A stretch of 33,820 nucleotides of DNA, taken from NCBI GenBank assembly GCA_029266335.1, contig JAQSXC010000029.1, forward strand, positions 1 to 33,820, in the 5' to 3' direction. The number at the start of each line of letters is the position of its first letter. Within the stretch, counting starts at the first letter, position 1. A program made the position numbers and the translations under genes. The stretch is from Eubacterium sp. (GTDB taxonomy: Bacteria > Bacillota > Clostridia > Acetivibrionales > DSM-1351). The notes below the pieces were generated by a model, which did not search any database, was not told the DNA's origin, and was given only the letters and a program-made list of their open reading frames with translations. Shown one piece after another: positions 497-30,773 of this stretch.

Positions 497-1546
497 ATGA
501 AGAGAAAGTTTTTAAGTATCTTAATGAGTGTTGCATTGACAGCAGGCATACTGGCAGGCTGCGGAGGTTCACAACCCGCCGCTGAAACAGCAGCCCAGAC
601 AAGTGCGGAAACATCTGCTGTAGCAGCATCAACAGAGGCAAAAGAAGCAGTTGCTTCAGCGACAGAAGCTTTAGGCAAGAGACCTGAAGGTGGATACAAA
701 TTCGGTTACACCTGTATGGATGGAACAAACCCATTCTTTGTTATCCTTGAAAAAACAATAAAAGCAGAAGTTGAAAAGAACGGTGACACATTAATCTCCA
801 CCGACCCGGCAAACAATGTAAGCCTTCAGATAACACAGATTGAAGACATGATCACACAGGGAATAGATGCAATATTCCTTAACCCTGCAGAAGCAGAAGG
901 TATTCTTCCTGCACTTGATGCGTTAAAGAAAGCAAATATTCCAATAATAAACTTTGATACAGAAGTTGCTGATTTATCATATGTTCAATCTTATGTAGGT
1001 TCAGATAACGTAAATGCAGGCAAGGTTTGCGGAGAAGATCTGGTAAAGAACTACCCTCAAGGCGGAAACATCATAGTTCTTGACTCTCCTACAATGAACT
1101 CAATCACTGACAGAACTAAAGGCTTCCTTCAGGCAATAGAAGGTAAAGGCTTTAAAATAGTAGCACAGCAGGATGCAAAAGGTAATCTTCAGGAAGCTAT
1201 GAGAATTAGTGAAGACTTATTACAGGCTCATGGTGATGTAGTTGCAATATTCGGAGGTAATGACCCTACAGCGCTTGGAGCTTTGGCAGCAGCAAATGCA
1301 GCCGGCATTAAGAAGTGTCTGATTTATGGTGTGGATGGTTCTCCTGATATCAAAACAGAACTTGCTACAGGTAAATCATTAATCGCCGGAACCGGTGCCC
1401 AATCACCCATAAACATAGCCAAGAAATCAGTAGAAGTAATGTACAAGCACCTGTCAGGTGAAAAAGTTGAAGCCAGATATCCGGTTGAAACTTTCCTTAT
1501 CAATTCAGAAAATGTATCTCAATTCGGTACAGACGGCTGGCAATAA
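497..1546 (+). CDS. Sugar ABC transporter solute-binding lipoprotein (RbsB-like)
   Basis: A 349-residue extracytoplasmic sugar-binding protein for the importer encoded just downstream. The start is ATG 497, preceded by GAGGAGG (484-490); a TTG at 482 is in frame but overlaps this ribosome-binding site. The N-terminus is a lipoprotein signal (basic MKRK, hydrophobic core, lipobox LAGC), followed by an Ala/Thr/Ser-rich linker of about 45 residues. The mature part is a periplasmic-binding-protein type 1 fold of the Peripla_BP_4 class: a TNPFF motif, an IDAIFLNPA segment and a conserved GGNDPTALGALAA/YGVDGSPD region that forms the hinge and pocket in ribose/galactose binders. The protein is clearly paralogous to the SBP at 4831, sharing most of the C-terminal half. 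The exact sugar cannot be read from sequence. Confidence 0.93.
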   Translation: MKRKFLSILMSVALTAGILAGCGGSQPAAETAAQTSAETSAVAASTEAKEAVASATEALGKRPEGGYKFGYTCMDGTNPFFVILEKTIKAEVEKNGDTLISTDPANNVSLQITQIEDMITQGIDAIFLNPAEAEGILPALDALKKANIPIINFDTEVADLSYVQSYVGSDNVNAGKVCGEDLVKNYPQGGNIIVLDSPTMNSITDRTKGFLQAIEGKGFKIVAQQDAKGNLQEAMRISEDLLQAHGDVVAIFGGNDPTALGALAAANAAGIKKCLIYGVDGSPDIKTELATGKSLIAGTGAQSPINIAKKSVEVMYKHLSGEKVEARYPVETFLINSENVSQFGTDGWQ

Positions 1547-1554
1547 TTCTTTAA

Positions 1555-1595
1555 CTTAAGTGCTTACTCTCGGAAACCGGGAGTAAGCACTTAAG
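1555..1595 (+). other. Stem-loop between SBP and ATPase genes (mRNA stabiliser or partial terminator)
   Basis: Perfect 15-bp arms (1555-1569 and 1581-1595, CTTAAGTGCTTACTC and its complement) extend inward through CGG-AAA-CCG. It begins 8 bp after the SBP stop codon and has no T tract. Such hairpins commonly protect the 3' end of abundant SBP mRNA and lower expression of the downstream ATPase and permease. Confidence 0.6.
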
Positions 1596-1774
1596 GAATG
1601 ATTAAGTAATAACTTCCTTTTTCAAGGGGCTACTTTCCGAAAATACTGTGTAGTTGAAAAGTACTGCTTCGCAGTACTTCGCTGCAATAAAGCAATTATT
1701 GCGCCTTCCGCCTCCGTGTCTTTTCGAAAACCATCTCTCTTGAAAATAGGGTTTTATTATTCAATCATTCCTAA
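1591..1774 (+). repeat. MITE-like element, copy 1 (full length)
   Basis: An element of about 184 bp. Its two ends (1591-1629 and 1736-1774) are imperfect inverted repeats of about 38 bp beginning TTAAGGAATGATT and ending AATCATTCCTAA. The centre has a small palindrome around TACTGCTTCGCAGTA and the motif AGCAATTATTGC. A reverse-oriented relative lies at 30568-30751 and a shortened one at 25788-25855. It codes for nothing and sits inside the SBP-ATPase gap of the importer operon. Confidence 0.7.
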
Positions 1775-4686: not shown

Positions 4687-4840
4687 TGTAACGAGGCAAC
4701 AGATGTCCCCCACCTCCTCAGGTGCCGGGTACCTTTTAGGGTTTCAGGCGGCGAGCGCATATCTCCCGCCTCGTTGAAACGCACAGTGGCAAGAAAATTT
4801 TTCTATAGTCGAAAAATTTTATCTGGACCAATGCGTTATA
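4687..4840 (+). repeat. Three-copy structured element, copy A (upstream of the sensor SBP)
   Basis: Closing arms TGTAACG (4687-4693) and CGTTATA (4834-4840) enclose three stems. Stem 1 is AACGAGGC (4690-4697)/GCCTCGTT (4768-4775) with a variable loop. Stem 2 is AACGCA (4778-4783)/TGCGTT (4832-4837). Within stem 2 lies the AT hairpin AAAATTTTTC/GAAAAATTTT. Relatives lie at 18434-18525 and 28449-28586, both in the same orientation. In the 399-bp gap 4432-4830 this element and the operon terminator are the only structures I see; 4498-4686 shows nothing clear. Confidence 0.65.
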
Positions 4841-5799
4841 AAAATATTGCGGGTATGGTTTTACTTATGTTTTTATTGTTTATATTTAATGGATGTTCAT
4901 TATACGATGATTCACAAGTTGCAAATACCGATGTGTCCTCCGCTGAGCCCCGTATATTTGGTGCCACTTATATGACCATGAATAATCCCTACTTCGAGGT
5001 TTTGAATAACAGTATTGAGGAAGTAGTGGAAGCAAACGGTGATGTACTGATTACACGTGACCCGGCTCAGGATCAGGAAAAACAAAACTCACAGATTTTA
5101 GATATGATTGAAGAGGGAGTAGGTGCGATTTTTTTAAACCCTGTGGATTGGAAAAAGGTGGAGCCTGCTCTAAAAGCATGTAAGGAGGCTGGAATTCCGG
5201 TCTTTAATGTTGATACATATGTTTATGATACGGAATATGTTGTGACAACAATCATATCAGATAATTATGATGCCGGTGTTCAGTGTGCGAAGGATATGAT
5301 GTCCAAGCTTGACAGCGCCAGAATTGTGGTTCTGGACAGACCCAATATGTATTCAATCACACAGAGAGTCAAGGGTTTTCTGGACACAATAGAAGGAAAT
5401 GACAAATATACTGTAGTTGCTCAGGAATCAGGCGGTGCGGAACTGCAGGTATCCATGGAGGTAATGAAAGGCATATTGTTAACCGGTAAAACTTTCAATG
5501 TTGTTATGGGAGGTAATGACCCTACTGCATTAGGGGCTTTGGCTGCATTACAGCTGAACCATGTAGATGATGGAGTTCTGATATATGGGGTTGATGGCTC
5601 CCCCGACGGTAAAATGATGATAAAAGAAGGTTATCTTGAGGGAAGCAGTGCGCAATATCCCATAACCATAGGAACAGTAGCTGCCAGGACTGCTTATGAA
5701 TATCTGGAAAATAAGCATGTGGAAAAATGCATTACAATACCTGTTAAACTTATTACGAAAAATAATCTTGATAAATTTGAAATTGACGGCTGGCAGTAA
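4831..5799 (+). CDS. Second solute-binding lipoprotein, probable sensor paralogue of the importer SBP
   Basis: A 322-residue protein from ATG 4831, with a lipoprotein-like N-terminus (RYK, hydrophobic stretch, Cys22 in FNGC, an imperfect lipobox). The body aligns with the SBP at 497 over nearly its whole length: NNPYFEV, GAIFLNPVDW, SITQRVKGFL, GGNDPTALGALAA, YGVDGSPDGK and the same C-terminal DGWQ. It is followed 14 bp later by a histidine kinase rather than a permease. I infer that it presents sugar to the kinase rather than to the transporter. The frame is open back to 4642, and no good ribosome-binding site precedes ATG 4831 or ATG 4855, so the start is uncertain. ATG 4831 lies in the conserved 3' end of the repeated element. 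Confidence 0.85.
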   Translation: MRYKNIAGMVLLMFLLFIFNGCSLYDDSQVANTDVSSAEPRIFGATYMTMNNPYFEVLNNSIEEVVEANGDVLITRDPAQDQEKQNSQILDMIEEGVGAIFLNPVDWKKVEPALKACKEAGIPVFNVDTYVYDTEYVVTTIISDNYDAGVQCAKDMMSKLDSARIVVLDRPNMYSITQRVKGFLDTIEGNDKYTVVAQESGGAELQVSMEVMKGILLTGKTFNVVMGGNDPTALGALAALQLNHVDDGVLIYGVDGSPDGKMMIKEGYLEGSSAQYPITIGTVAARTAYEYLENKHVEKCITIPVKLITKNNLDKFEIDGWQ

Positions 5800-18433: not shown

Positions 18434-18525
18434 CTTATAACGAGTCAATAGATATAGAAACGCGCATAAGGTAAGAAAATTTTTCTACAGCCGAAAAATT
18501 ATCTGGTAAACCTATGCGTTATAAG
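18434..18525 (+). repeat. Three-copy structured element, copy B (leader of the VTC operon)
   Basis: The shortest copy (92 bp), with perfect 9-bp closing arms CTTATAACG (18434-18442)/CGTTATAAG (18517-18525). It lacks the GC hairpin of the other copies. It keeps AACGCGCAT (18459-18467)/ATGCGTT (18514-18520), an AGGT/ACCT extension, and the AATTTTTC/GAAAAATT hairpin. Just downstream, ACCTCC (18531-18536) can pair either with the adjacent GGAG or with the GAGGTG ribosome-binding site (18565-18570) of the VTC gene. Confidence 0.65.
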
Positions 18526-20204: not shown

Positions 20205-22373
20205 ATGATTACCAGTAAGTATATAAATATTTTTATAATAGGCATCCTGGTTTTTGCACTTATTTTTACGGGTTTACTGGTCTTCTTACCGAGCGCAGAG
20301 GGTATTGCGGTCACGTCCCGGCAGCCTCAGTATGTTTCCGGTCTATTTGATAAAAATAAGATCTCTACTATTGATATAAAAGTGGACGAAGCTGAATGGC
20401 AGAAAATGCTTGATAGTGCACAGGAACAATATATTTCCTGCGATGTCGTAATAAATGGAACAACCGTTGAATCAGTAGGCATAAGGCCAAAAGGAAATTC
20501 CAGTTTGTCTACAGTAGCCAGATCCGATTCTGACAGATTCAGTTTCAAATTTGAATTTGATCACTTCATAAAGGGTCAAAACTATTTAGGTCTGGATAAA
20601 ATGGTAATAAACAACGTACAGTCCGATGCCAGCTATATGAAGGATTATCTTTCCTATGACCTCATGACCTTTATGGGAGTGAAAACACCGTTGTTTGCTT
20701 ATACAAATGTAACTGTTAACGGTAAGAGCTGGGGCTTTTATATAGCTGTTGAAGCACTTGAGGAATCCTTTGCACAGCGTAATTACGGCACTGACTATGG
20801 TATGCTCTATAAGCCCGAGAGTATGGAAATGGGCGGCAACGAAATGAAGGATTTTACTGCTCCCGATAAAATTGAGCGCAACACTGAAAATAAAACGGCA
20901 GGTAACGCTGAAAAAAATAAGAAAGAAAATGCCGATAATAATACAGTTATTAATCCTCAACAGAATAGTGCTCAACAGAATAGTACTCAGCAAAATAGTA
21001 CTCAACAGAATAACCCTCAGAATGACAGGAATAACGGGTTTGGCGGCAGAGGCATGAATGGGTTTGGAGCAGGAGGACCGGGCGGTGCCTCGGGCGGAGG
21101 GACAGACTTGAAGTATACCGATGATAAGACCGGCAGCTACTCCAACATATTTGATAATGAAGTATTTAAGGGTACTGACTCAGACTACTCGAAAGTTATT
21201 GAAGCCTTAAAAAATCTTAATTCAGGTACTGAACTGGAAAAATACATTGATGTGGATGCCACGTTAAGATACCTGGCTGCTAATACTGTTTTGGTTAATT
21301 TGGACAGTTATTTCAGCAGCATGAAGCACAACTATTATCTATACGAAGAAGACGGCAGGCTGACAATGCTTCCCTGGGACTATAACCTGGCATTCGGAGG
21401 CTTCCAGTCGGGATCGGCCGATGCTGCAGTGAATTTTCCAATAGATACCCCTGTTTCAGGAATTGATATGTCGGAGCGCCCAATGCTTGCTAAGCTTCTT
21501 GAAGTAGACGAATATAAGGATAAATATCATGAATACCTGAAACAGATTGTAGATGAGTATTTTAACAATGGAAGATATCAAACAACGATTGATAATATAA
21601 ACACACTTATTTCGGACTATGTAAAGGAGGATCCGTCAGCATTCTACACATTCCAGCAGTACACGGATGCCGTTTCGGCCATAAAGGAATTTGGAAGACT
21701 TCGTGCACTTAGTATTGACGGTCAGCTAAAGGGCACTATTCCCTCCACAACCGTTGGTCAGACTAAAGACTCTGATAAATTAATTGATGCATCTTCCGTT
21801 AATCTTTCAACAATGGGTTCACAAGGAGGCGGTGCCGGTGGAGGCTGGGGAGGCAACCGCCAAAACAGGAATAACAATAACGAAGCCGTCAACAACGCTC
21901 AGCAGAATACAGGTACCAACAATAATTCCCAACAGAATGCACAGCAAAGTACACAGCAGAATCCTCCGCAGCCGGATAATTCTCAAGAACAATCAGGTAA
22001 TCAGCAGCCGGATGGCCAACAGAACGGAATGATGCAGCCACCTGAGGGCTTCCAGCCTCCTGATGGGGACTGGATGCCTGACGGCACACAACCCCCTGAC
22101 GGTTCGCAGCCGCCTGATGGTACACAAGCACCTGATGGTGTACAGCCGCCCGATGGTATGCAGCAGGGAGGAGATCAGACCCGAGGAAACAATCAGGGAA
22201 TGGGTAATGGAGGGCAGGGCGGCTTCGGTATGGATGGACCTGCTGCCCGGCAGTCTTCGGCTGGAAGTTTATCCGGCAGTAGTTACAACATTCCTGTTCT
22301 GGCCGGCAGCACTGCATTTTTATTAGCAGGACTGATCTTTGTTTTAAAATTCAAGAGGGTTAAATATTTTTAA
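20205..22373 (+). CDS. CotH-family surface protein with Q/N-rich and PPDG repeats
   Basis: A 722-residue protein. Residues 9-31 are a membrane anchor or signal. The CotH domain (about 50-520) has RPKGNSS (near 93), a KMVINNVQSD segment, LYKPE (near 202) and LPWDYNLAFGG (near 390), which in relatives carries the metal-binding Asp of an atypical kinase fold. The domain is interrupted by a Q/N- and G-rich insert (about 225-305). The C-terminal region (about 545-690) is Q/N-rich with seven hexapeptide PPDG-type repeats, ending in a membrane helix (about 694-716) and a basic tail KFKRVKYF. The membrane topology and repeats suggest an extracellular enzyme spanning the wall. B. subtilis CotH phosphorylates spore-coat proteins; the substrate here is unknown. 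Confidence 0.88.
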   Translation: MITSKYINIFIIGILVFALIFTGLLVFLPSAEGIAVTSRQPQYVSGLFDKNKISTIDIKVDEAEWQKMLDSAQEQYISCDVVINGTTVESVGIRPKGNSSLSTVARSDSDRFSFKFEFDHFIKGQNYLGLDKMVINNVQSDASYMKDYLSYDLMTFMGVKTPLFAYTNVTVNGKSWGFYIAVEALEESFAQRNYGTDYGMLYKPESMEMGGNEMKDFTAPDKIERNTENKTAGNAEKNKKENADNNTVINPQQNSAQQNSTQQNSTQQNNPQNDRNNGFGGRGMNGFGAGGPGGASGGGTDLKYTDDKTGSYSNIFDNEVFKGTDSDYSKVIEALKNLNSGTELEKYIDVDATLRYLAANTVLVNLDSYFSSMKHNYYLYEEDGRLTMLPWDYNLAFGGFQSGSADAAVNFPIDTPVSGIDMSERPMLAKLLEVDEYKDKYHEYLKQIVDEYFNNGRYQTTIDNINTLISDYVKEDPSAFYTFQQYTDAVSAIKEFGRLRALSIDGQLKGTIPSTTVGQTKDSDKLIDASSVNLSTMGSQGGGAGGGWGGNRQNRNNNNEAVNNAQQNTGTNNNSQQNAQQSTQQNPPQPDNSQEQSGNQQPDGQQNGMMQPPEGFQPPDGDWMPDGTQPPDGSQPPDGTQAPDGVQPPDGMQQGGDQTRGNNQGMGNGGQGGFGMDGPAARQSSAGSLSGSSYNIPVLAGSTAFLLAGLIFVLKFKRVKYF
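20956..21015 (+). repeat. Four tandem 15-bp repeats in the CotH gene
   Basis: Four units of CTCAACAGAATAGTA or close variants, each coding for a QQNS[A/T]-type pentapeptide. In-frame unit length means copy-number change by slippage would not disrupt the gene. Confidence 0.8.
22035..22160 (+). repeat. Seven tandem 18-bp repeats in the CotH gene
   Basis: Seven consecutive hexapeptide units of the form Q-P-P-D-G-x, with variants PPEG, MPDG and APDG. Codon use differs between units, so they are older than the 15-bp array upstream. Confidence 0.75.
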
Positions 22374-25789: not shown

Positions 25790-25855
25790 GGAACATTTAA
25801 ATAATAACTTAAACTGTCTCCCTTGAAAATTGGGTTTTATTATTAAATTGTTCCT
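25788..25855 (+). repeat. MITE-like element, shortened copy 3
   Basis: The ends GGAACATTTAAATAATAA (25790-25807) and TTATTATTAAATTGTTCC (about 25837-25853) are inverted repeats. The right end also shares CTTGAAAATTGGGTTTTATT with copy 1. The central 110 bp or so of the full element is missing, leaving a single hairpin that could now serve as a prfA terminator. Confidence 0.6.
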
Positions 25856-25936
25856 AAATCAGGACGAATTATTAATAATCTGCGGCAGCCTGGAATAGTA
25901 TGTCTTAAAGACTAACTATCAAAGGATGGAATTGCC

Positions 25937-28420: not shown

Positions 28421-28449
28421 TTGACATGAGATAATTTATACTATAAAAT
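28421..28449 (+). promoter_or_regulatory. SigA promoter upstream of rpiB
   Basis: TTGACA (28421-28426), a 17-nt spacer and TAAAAT (28444-28449). The transcript would start near 28456, within the first arm of the structured element, leaving a leader of about 285 nt. Confidence 0.65.
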
Positions 28450-28586
28450 AATAACGAGGCGATTATAGATGTCCATAGTGTCCTTTCAGTACGCATTGAG
28501 AACACCTTCGCCTCGTTGAAACGCGCATTAAGTAAGAAAATTTTTTTACAACCGAAAAATTTTCTAATGAGCCTATGCGTTATAAG
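28449..28586 (+). repeat. Three-copy structured element, copy C (leader of rpiB)
   Basis: Stem 1 is AACGAGGCG (28453-28461)/CGCCTCGTT (28509-28517), perfect over 9 bp with a 47-nt variable loop. Stem 2 is AACGCGCAT (28520-28528)/ATGCGTT (28575-28581), containing the hairpin AAAATTTTT...GAAAAATTTT. A short AAAAC-TTC-GTTTTT hairpin (around 28600-28613) follows and could be a weak termination signal. The 346-bp gap 28394-28739 contains only the promoter, this element and its downstream leader. Confidence 0.65.
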
Positions 28587-29862: not shown

Positions 29863-30120
29863 TAGCGGATTTTCTTGGCATATAGAAATTTACAACTTTT
29901 TAAATTTAGTGTGAGTACTATTAAAATTGAGTTTGAAAATTCAATCGGACACATTTCTATATGCAGGGTTTGAAAAGGGGAATCCCCCTTTCCGGTGTAG
30001 AGGGGGTGCTCAGGAGCGTTAGCTCCGTCGAAGGGGGAAGTAGTTCCCCCTAGCGAACAAGAAAATTTGCTCGCTAAATACAAATAAGCGCTAAAAAACT
30101 GAGTGTAGCGGATTTTCTTG
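29863..30120 (+). repeat. Direct-repeat-flanked, hairpin-rich interval between upp and comEB
   Basis: A perfect 15-bp direct repeat TAGCGGATTTTCTTG (29863-29877 and 30106-30120) flanks 228 bp. Inside are perfect 12-bp arms 29878-29889/29953-29964; a G4/C4 hairpin near 29974-29990; GGAGC-GTTA-GCTCC (30013-30026); AGGGGGAA/TTCCCCCT (30032-30051); and TAGCGA/TCGCTA (30051-30076), whose interior holds an inverted variant of the direct repeat. No ORF is present. It may be a small mobile element with target duplication, or a structured RNA. It fills the whole gap 29832-30132. Confidence 0.55.
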
Positions 30121-30570: not shown

Positions 30571-30751
30571 GGTATGATAAAAAAATAAAACTCTGTTTTA
30601 AGGCGTGATATTTTTCGTCAAGACAAGGCGGAGGAAAGAGCAATAATTGCTTATTGCAACAAAGTACTGCGAAGCAGTGCTTTTCGATAAGGTCGTATTG
30701 GAGTGAAGTAGTTGTCTCAAAATGGTGAAATTATTATTTAATTATGCCTAA
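30568..30751 (-). repeat. MITE-like element, copy 2 (full length, inverted relative to copy 1)
   Basis: On the minus strand this 184-bp stretch matches copy 1 (1591-1774) along its length. It shares the central TACTGCTTCGCAGTA-like palindrome, the AGCAATTATTGC block, the CTCCGCC block and the outer inverted repeats (AGGTATGATAAAAAAATAA at the left, TTATTTAATTATGCCT at the right). It begins at the comEB stop codon. Opposite orientations of two full copies argue for mobility rather than a fixed regulatory role. Confidence 0.7.
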
Positions 30752-30773
30752 AGTATTTTGATGAAATTTATAA

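Follow-up and report, generated by a model that had tools for sequence, protein, structure and literature searches.

Palindromic elements of the REP/RAYT type, derived from IS200/IS605, have hairpin ends, insert 3' of a short target and show strand bias. MITEs are described, in the part of the source used here, as short, non-coding, folded, multicopy and intergenic (PMC10969869). The BOX elements of Streptococcus pneumoniae are small and dispersed, with over 100 copies per genome, and are much rarer in other species (PMC3049150). The sections of that account on which we draw describe inner modules, variable in number, between end modules, along with predicted RNA folds and a presumed parasite mobilised in trans (PMC3049150). 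They also report over-representation between convergent genes (16 compared to 70 upstream of a gene, against a background of 149 compared to 1800) and a leading-strand share of 60.8% (PMC3049150). The window analysed here is a stretch of 33,820 nucleotides from Eubacterium sp. (contig JAQSXC010000029.1). It holds three copies of a folded element that, with a probability of about 0.86, is a non-autonomous, structured, modular mobile repeat, both MITE-like and BOX-like, of one clostridial order. Among the titles and abstract openings listed in literature searches of non-subscription journals, none describes this element family.

A sequence-only reading of the window had proposed a three-copy structured element, and three copies are present, all on the + strand. 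Copy A (4687-4841; copy listing, fold) has a long loop module and precedes a sugar-binding (Peripla_BP_4) gene, copy B (about 18435-18524; copy listing, fold) precedes a VTC-domain gene, and the focal copy C (28450-28585; BLAST, copy listing and an empty site in ten congeners) lies in the rpiB leader, with a low-molecular-weight phosphatase gene and rpiB as its neighbours. The copies are related beyond chance: over 69 nt, copy B matches copy C at 87%, and a 31-nt stretch is common to all three at 81% or more. A 42-nt pattern derived from copy B matched copy B alone and is uninformative on the likeness of the three. The proposed features are all there, namely the outer TAACG/CGTTA closure, the AACGC/GCGTT pairing and the hairpin rich in A+T, and a GC-rich hairpin (AACGAGGC/GCCTCGTT) whose loops are unrelated is carried, as had been said, by two of the three copies, A and C. 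The proposed TACA-type loop holds for B (TACAGCC) and C (TACAACC), but copy A has TATAGTC. Copy B looks like an internal-deletion derivative in which the P1 5' arm is kept and the 3' arm is gone. In copy C, the pre-insertion target AATAA occupies 28450-28454, and AATAA also follows the -10 region in the element-free congeners G001 and G009. It overlaps the P1 5' arm AACGAGGC (28453-28460), after which come the P1 variable loop (28461-28509), where a degenerate short module GATGTCC..GTGTCC is discerned by eye, and the P1 3' arm GCCTCGTT (28510-28517). The P2 5' arm AACGC (28520-28524), the P4 AT-rich hairpin (28535-28565, heptaloop TACAACC at 28547-28553) and the P2 3' arm GCGTT (28577-28581) follow; fold and pair counts place P1 and P4, and pair counts place P2. 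By empty-site comparison, the inserted DNA spans 28455-28585; should the final TAA be a duplication of the target, it would end at 28582 instead. The window also holds a 48-nt direct repeat upstream of genes, at 1728-1775, 25811-25858 (85%) and, more weakly, 30705-30752 (63%), which is possibly a shared promoter or operator. Tandem 15-nt units at 20951-21025 lie within the ORF at 20205-22373 and code for a short repetitive stretch.

From 111 listed copies, 102 have a recognisable 5' end, and 94 are left once six near-duplicates and two truncated copies are removed. A complete unit runs in the order xxTAA, CGAGGC, variable loop, GCCTCGTT, GAAACGC, joiner, AAAATTTTTC, TACARYC, GAAAAATTTT, second joiner and GCGTTATAA, and its termini are TAACGAGG and GCGTTATAA. 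Three stems recur, P1 (AACGAGGC/GCCTCGTT), P2 (AACGC/GCGTT) and the AT-rich hairpin P4, as does the heptaloop TACARYC. The ends are sharp, and the putative terminal inverted repeats TATAACG/CGTTATA are about 5-7 bp long and in part target-derived. TAA stands at both termini in 77 of 94 copies, with deviation at the 5' end only in 8 and at the 3' end only in 9. The dinucleotide before the 5' TAA is TA in 70 of 94 copies, AA in 14 and TG in 6, whereas TA precedes the 3' TAA in 91 of 94. The 5' TAA is target sequence; the 3' TAA could belong to the element itself or stem from a duplication of 3 bp. Target duplication amounts to TAA at most, and the own-TAA and duplication models predict equal empty-site length. 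Tandem head-to-tail copies in G007 and G053 have the common junction CGTTATAACG. Loop modules were scored with strict patterns (long, ..GGTTTTCAGGCGG..; short, GGTGTCC/GGACACC) that degenerate forms escape: the 61 full copies of the own genome comprise 17 long, 14 short, 0 with both and 30 with neither, and the 35 copies from other genomes comprise 9, 1, 4 and 21, respectively. By eye, L014, L017, L040 and L044 contain parts of both modules. An additional AAGAACGTG/AACGTTCTT hairpin occurs in the 3' half of own copies L013 and L040 and of some G001 and G009 copies, and the P4 hairpin seems to have been lost from L180 and L186 through deletion between TTGAA repeats. Elements have a GC content of 0.387 compared to 0.386 for the window, and A+T is no higher in elements. 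The core midpoint falls within a called gene in 0 of 111 copies, and the 5' portion of some copies overlaps the end of the upstream gene.

Empty sites demonstrate insertion at the focal rpiB site, L041 and L084. A promoter TTGACA-17-TAAAAT had been proposed directly ahead of copy C; it is present, matches 11 of 12 promoter positions and leaves copy C in the rpiB leader. This sigma-70-type rpiB promoter (28421-28449, + strand; promoter score) lies outside the element, however, and is older: TTGACA..TATAAAATAA is kept in 10 of 10 congeners, and in all ten the element is absent between promoter and rpiB. The site reads ATAAAATAATAA-AGAACGGCATAGGAAAAAC in G001 and G009 and ATAAAATAATAA-element-GAAATAGCATAAGGAAAAC in the window, so the element entered directly 3' of AATAA, beside the expected transcription start, and the promoter is that of rpiB; the focal copy is an insertion. 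Bases after the -10 region vary somewhat in the other eight congeners (e.g., AATTAAAGATG). The L041 site is empty in all seven loci read (G001, G009, G004, G010, G005, G008 and G002) of eight homologous ones, the eighth being that of G003. The L041 element starts at the stop of ATG TAA, the upstream gene ends likewise in element-free G001 and G009, and ATATGTAA is already there in both. The L041-equivalent spacer of G001 and G009 (L241 and L242) carries a different inverted repeat of ~90 nt, TTAGCCAGTACAATATTC..GAATATTGTACTGGC, and G000 has the mobile element there. At the L084 site, the stop GTATAA occurs without the element in G002 and G000, where the right flank is non-homologous. Flanks of the L083 site are 97-98% identical in G009 and are joined by 11 unaligned bases in place of the element, a difference that fits gain or loss of the element alike. 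The left ends at L041 and L084 are consistent with that of the focal site. L061 is uninformative on insertion, with a non-homologous left flank in the loci read; L085 is equally uninformative, as G001 shares its copy and in the other genomes the match begins only at the 3' end of the copy.

The element is numerous in its own genome, where BLAST with the focal copy as query (E <= 1e-3) hits at least 41 places after scoring of 40 of 106 candidates. On a loose alignment of 44 sequences, RNAalifold predicted no consensus pairs, so profile R1, which covers a 68-nt core, was built from sequence only and pairing was counted by script. R1 gives at least 85 matches in the own genome, which equals the number scored, and 21, 1, 0, 13, 0, 1, 62, 1, 21 and 0 in ten congeners. 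A deeper scan (E <= 0.01) gives 24 matches in G001, 25 in G009 and 82 in G007, of which a few are reverse-strand echoes of the same hairpin. Element count within the genus spans 0 to over 80. Among 60 genomes (own plus 59 relatives), 33 match R1: the own genome, seven of the ten congeners and another 25 genomes from the order. A class-wide draw (17 candidates scored in each) gave matches in 16 of 291 genomes, 9 of them the own genome or members of its genus or order. The exact core pattern occurs in at least six stretches of the genome collection, from Acetivibrio mesophilus N2K1, Hungateiclostridiaceae bacterium UBA1305 and Clostridium sp. AS24abBPME_43; the exact pattern had no match in viral contigs, and BLAST found none in plasmids.

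Sampled copies do not follow orthologous genes. BLASTP of the genes that flank 111 sampled copies revealed no between-species site in common, apart from those of the near-identical pair G001/G009 and that of one island. Among downstream genes of different species, the best match otherwise is that between the genes behind L020 (G000) and L092 (G041), which are 38.5% identical over their full length and have unrelated upstream neighbours. The gene downstream of L050 in G000 is presumably D-ala-D-ala-ligase-like. It has 38% identity to the upstream, opposite-strand gene of L074 (G043), and the remaining likenesses are weaker or of partial length. In G012, G042 and G045, which represent three genera of two families, the island shows the same element between the same printed flanks, so that it has moved, horizontally. 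On the island (L072, L073 and L075) the element lies between a thioredoxin-like gene and a MGCCETQRNNT.. gene; a match in G101, outside the order, has the same 63.4-bit score as the island copy. Divergence was compared for 14 copies shared by G001 and G009, in which the element has 57 differences in 2201 positions (core 22/868, 5' part 35/1333) compared to 63/3818 in other aligned non-coding DNA (Fisher p 0.016) and 657/27166 in coding DNA; the strict local alignment omits badly diverged or inserted non-coding stretches, which biases the non-coding figure low. A pass without separation of coding and non-coding DNA gave 0.0285 compared to 0.0192. In this pair, the element diverges no slower than nearby non-coding DNA and shows no mark of purifying selection. 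An apparent constraint, which arose from a non-coding divergence of 0.074 under forced global alignment, was rejected as alignment error; strict local alignment gave 0.0165 and reversed the sign.

Copy C has a predicted fold of -36.5 kcal/mol that beats 200 of 200 shuffles (z -5.2); copies A and B have z values of -3.0 and -2.7, with 0 and 2 of 200 shuffles as good, respectively. Compensatory changes, which had been suggested from the window copies, are found in wider comparison, with two-sided changed cells above shuffles that ignore relatedness among copies: 26 in P1 compared to a shuffled mean of 5.7 (max 14), 9 in P2 compared to 1.9 (max 6), both in 94 copies, and 25 in P4 compared to 6.8 (max 14) in the 65 copies with a recognisable loop. 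The hairpins carry compensatory changes and include covarying stems. G-T pairs are not favoured over A-C pairs across all copies (71 vs 59, p 0.33), with 26 vs 10 in P4 and 27 vs 38 in P1. The G-T to A-C ratio in P1 and P2 together is 34:20 in sense and 1:7 in antisense copies (p 0.017), and the Watson-Crick share in these stems is 0.880 in 59 sense compared to 0.915 in 10 antisense copies. No Rfam family covers the element in the window at gathering level or, at E <= 1, in five other copy-bearing loci, which agrees with the sequence-only reading, where no riboswitch class could be matched by motif. The sole gathering-level Rfam match in the window is Clostridiales-2 RNA (RF02937) at 29958-30038 (63.2 bits), and a THF riboswitch (86.5 bits) occurs in L010 at 1481-1621 (+).

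Orientation is strongly skewed. After removal of six near-duplicates, the 94 copies with genes called on both sides by a hexamer gene caller (60 own, 34 from other genomes) comprise 60 codirectional sense, 11 codirectional antisense, 20 divergent and 3 convergent cases, and sense exceeds antisense in codirectional spacers with p 2.6e-9. Copy-free spacers of at least 20 nt at the own loci number 154 codirectional, 16 divergent and 24 convergent, and convergent spacers hold 2 of 60 own copies (p 0.05). A sense gene lies downstream of 80 of 94 copies; for 32 of these 80 it starts no more than 40 nt from the element, many spacers being short. Preferential placement beside ribosome-binding sites was considered and rejected, because in spacers longer than 60 nt placement is even, with 27 of 48 sense copies closer to the downstream gene. 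Exact abutment on a stop codon occurs in 10 of 60 copies, and of the 518 WRTAA sites that copy-free codirectional spacers contain, 49 are stops (p 0.055), so abutment follows mostly from the TAA preference. Target asymmetry was likewise rejected as the cause of the sense bias; TATAA sites in copy-free codirectional spacers (150 sense, 120 antisense) are too even for a 60:11 ratio. In the closed genome of G007, 48 of 52 examined copies (of 82 matches) are oriented with replication, presuming an origin near base 1 and a terminus near 2.35 Mb; sampled genes there run 136 with and 19 against replication, and the four exceptional copies are also antisense to genes. At other loci, antisense copies (12 rows, one a near-duplicate) oppose both the gene and the inferred replication direction. 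Seven sense copies are flagged as possibly lagging, one of which (L033) is lagging by gene content and skew. Transcription and replication are inseparable as causes of the bias, and L033 leans to transcription. TATAAT-like hexamers that start 9-14 nt upstream number 28 compared to about 13 expected in 102 copies, and TTGACA-like hexamers at -32 to -37 number 5 compared to about 4. Most copies thus have no recognisable promoter directly ahead.

The proposal of the sequence-only reading, that of a new cis-regulatory 5'-leader RNA, riboswitch-like and in command of a large regulon, is highly improbable on these data, notwithstanding the stable copy C fold, the compensatory changes in three stems and the recurrent TACARYC loop. 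The 60 sense copies among 71 in codirectional spacers, the sense gene behind 80 of 94 copies, often within 40 nt, and the 38.5% identity of the genes behind L020 and L092 would also suit such an RNA. Yet the orthologous site is empty in 10 of 10 congeners for the focal copy and in 7 of 7 loci read for L041, sampled copies have no common between-species site besides the G001/G009 pair and the island, and copy number varies from 0 to over 80 inside the genus. Even placement in longer spacers, the 11 antisense copies, divergence that is no slower than its surroundings and the lack of a wobble preference overall (71 vs 59) point the same way. Co-option of a mobile repeat after its insertion, as a leader module for stability or translation whose sense copies are then kept, is improbable too, if less so. 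It would account for a sense bias beyond target frequency and for the different P1/P2 wobble of sense and antisense copies (p 0.017), but strand-biased C to T mutation would predict the wobble difference equally, no constraint appears between G001 and G009, and the Watson-Crick share of sense copies is no better than that of antisense copies. The mobile repeat with inverted ends, which had been named as the main alternative to a leader RNA, fits. Points that count against it are inverted ends of only about 5-7 bp, the strong sense bias and the few convergent copies, which is unlike BOX. Further such points are a target duplication of TAA at most, an A+T content no higher than in the window, the absence of a mobiliser and of a longer element in the searches described below, and the 32 of 80 downstream sense genes that start close to the element, as for a leader RNA. 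The sequence-only reading had named equal numbers in both orientations, placement between convergent genes, target-site duplications and a lack of covariation as marks of a MITE rather than a regulatory RNA; the copies are mostly sense, seldom convergent and covarying. Such features alone therefore do not establish a regulatory RNA.

Under the mobile-repeat reading, a trans-acting enzyme would recognise the folded ends and insert the unit beside TAA, after which the element would be co-transcribed with its neighbours and then drift. The shortage of antisense copies could reflect selection against them, or insertion coupled to the direction of transcription or replication. Copy C, beside the expected rpiB transcription start, would extend the leader by about 130 nt, and if this alters the expression of rpiB, the effect would presumably be incidental. 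One form of the mobile repeat, a single-strand IS200/IS605-like derivative of Y1 type (PATE/REP) that inserts 3' of a short target with replication-strand bias, is possible but somewhat doubtful. The pre-existing 5' target, the asymmetric ends (TA before 70 of 94 5' TAA and 91 of 94 3' TAA), hairpins near both ends and the leading-strand orientation of 48 of 52 G007 copies are what it would predict. In G014 (18 copies), moreover, a 311-aa Y1 transposase gene (IS200-like, RAYT-like; L178 934-1869, - strand) is located some 120 nt ahead of a complete copy, an adjacency that could be chance. The search for a mobiliser covered Y1 (PF01797) and DDE_3 (PF13358): all 17 genomes lacked a DDE_3 match at E <= 1e-6, and Y1_Tnp matched 14 of 17. 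Y1 presence is uncorrelated with element copy number, however, given that G041, with 41 copies and a 93% complete genome, has no PF01797 match at E <= 1e-4, and G002 has 13 Y1 matches and a single copy. IS608 has a guide 5' of its hairpin, but P1 begins at the cut site and leaves no space for one; antisense copies that oppose gene and inferred replication direction alike also speak against this special case. No longer element with the same ends was found among eight orphan 5'-end loci examined. It is rather unlikely, although conceivable, that the element is a new mobile folded family in which insertion itself, and not retention alone, tracks the direction of transcription. Such a family might, for example, pass through an intermediate of single-stranded DNA or of RNA, which would be placed in the coding strand next to TAA, and that its enzyme is of a kind new to mini-repeats is similarly a long shot.

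The mobile repeat described here occupies leaders and operon spacers of many genes in one clostridial order. With a stable fold, compensatory pairs, a strong promoter ahead and a gene behind, it is a riboswitch look-alike that is most likely no riboswitch. Its sense orientation raises the question of how mini-elements enter or persist in transcribed DNA. Like riboswitches, the element is structured and lies in leaders upstream of genes; unlike them, it has no Rfam match in the window or the five other loci scanned and is not retained at orthologous genes in the sample compared. Hairpin ends, a short 5' target and strand bias are shared with REP/RAYT and IS200/IS605-derived elements, but Y1 transposases fail to track its copy number. 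It resembles MITEs, as the consulted part of their description has them, in being short, non-coding and folded with many intergenic copies. It differs from MITEs in its very short inverted ends, a duplication of TAA at most and an A+T content not above that of the host window, and a parent IS was not found in the search with PF13358 and PF01797. We do not file it as BOX, REP or any Rfam family. Compared to BOX, as far as the sections used here describe it, the host is another one, and the element, in the reverse of the convergent excess reported for BOX, is convergent in 3 of 94 cases; it is sense in 60 of 71 codirectional ones. Pneumococcal BOX nevertheless appears to be closest in kind: the element is also dispersed, modular, folded if transcribed and probably copied in trans, a likeness of kind only.
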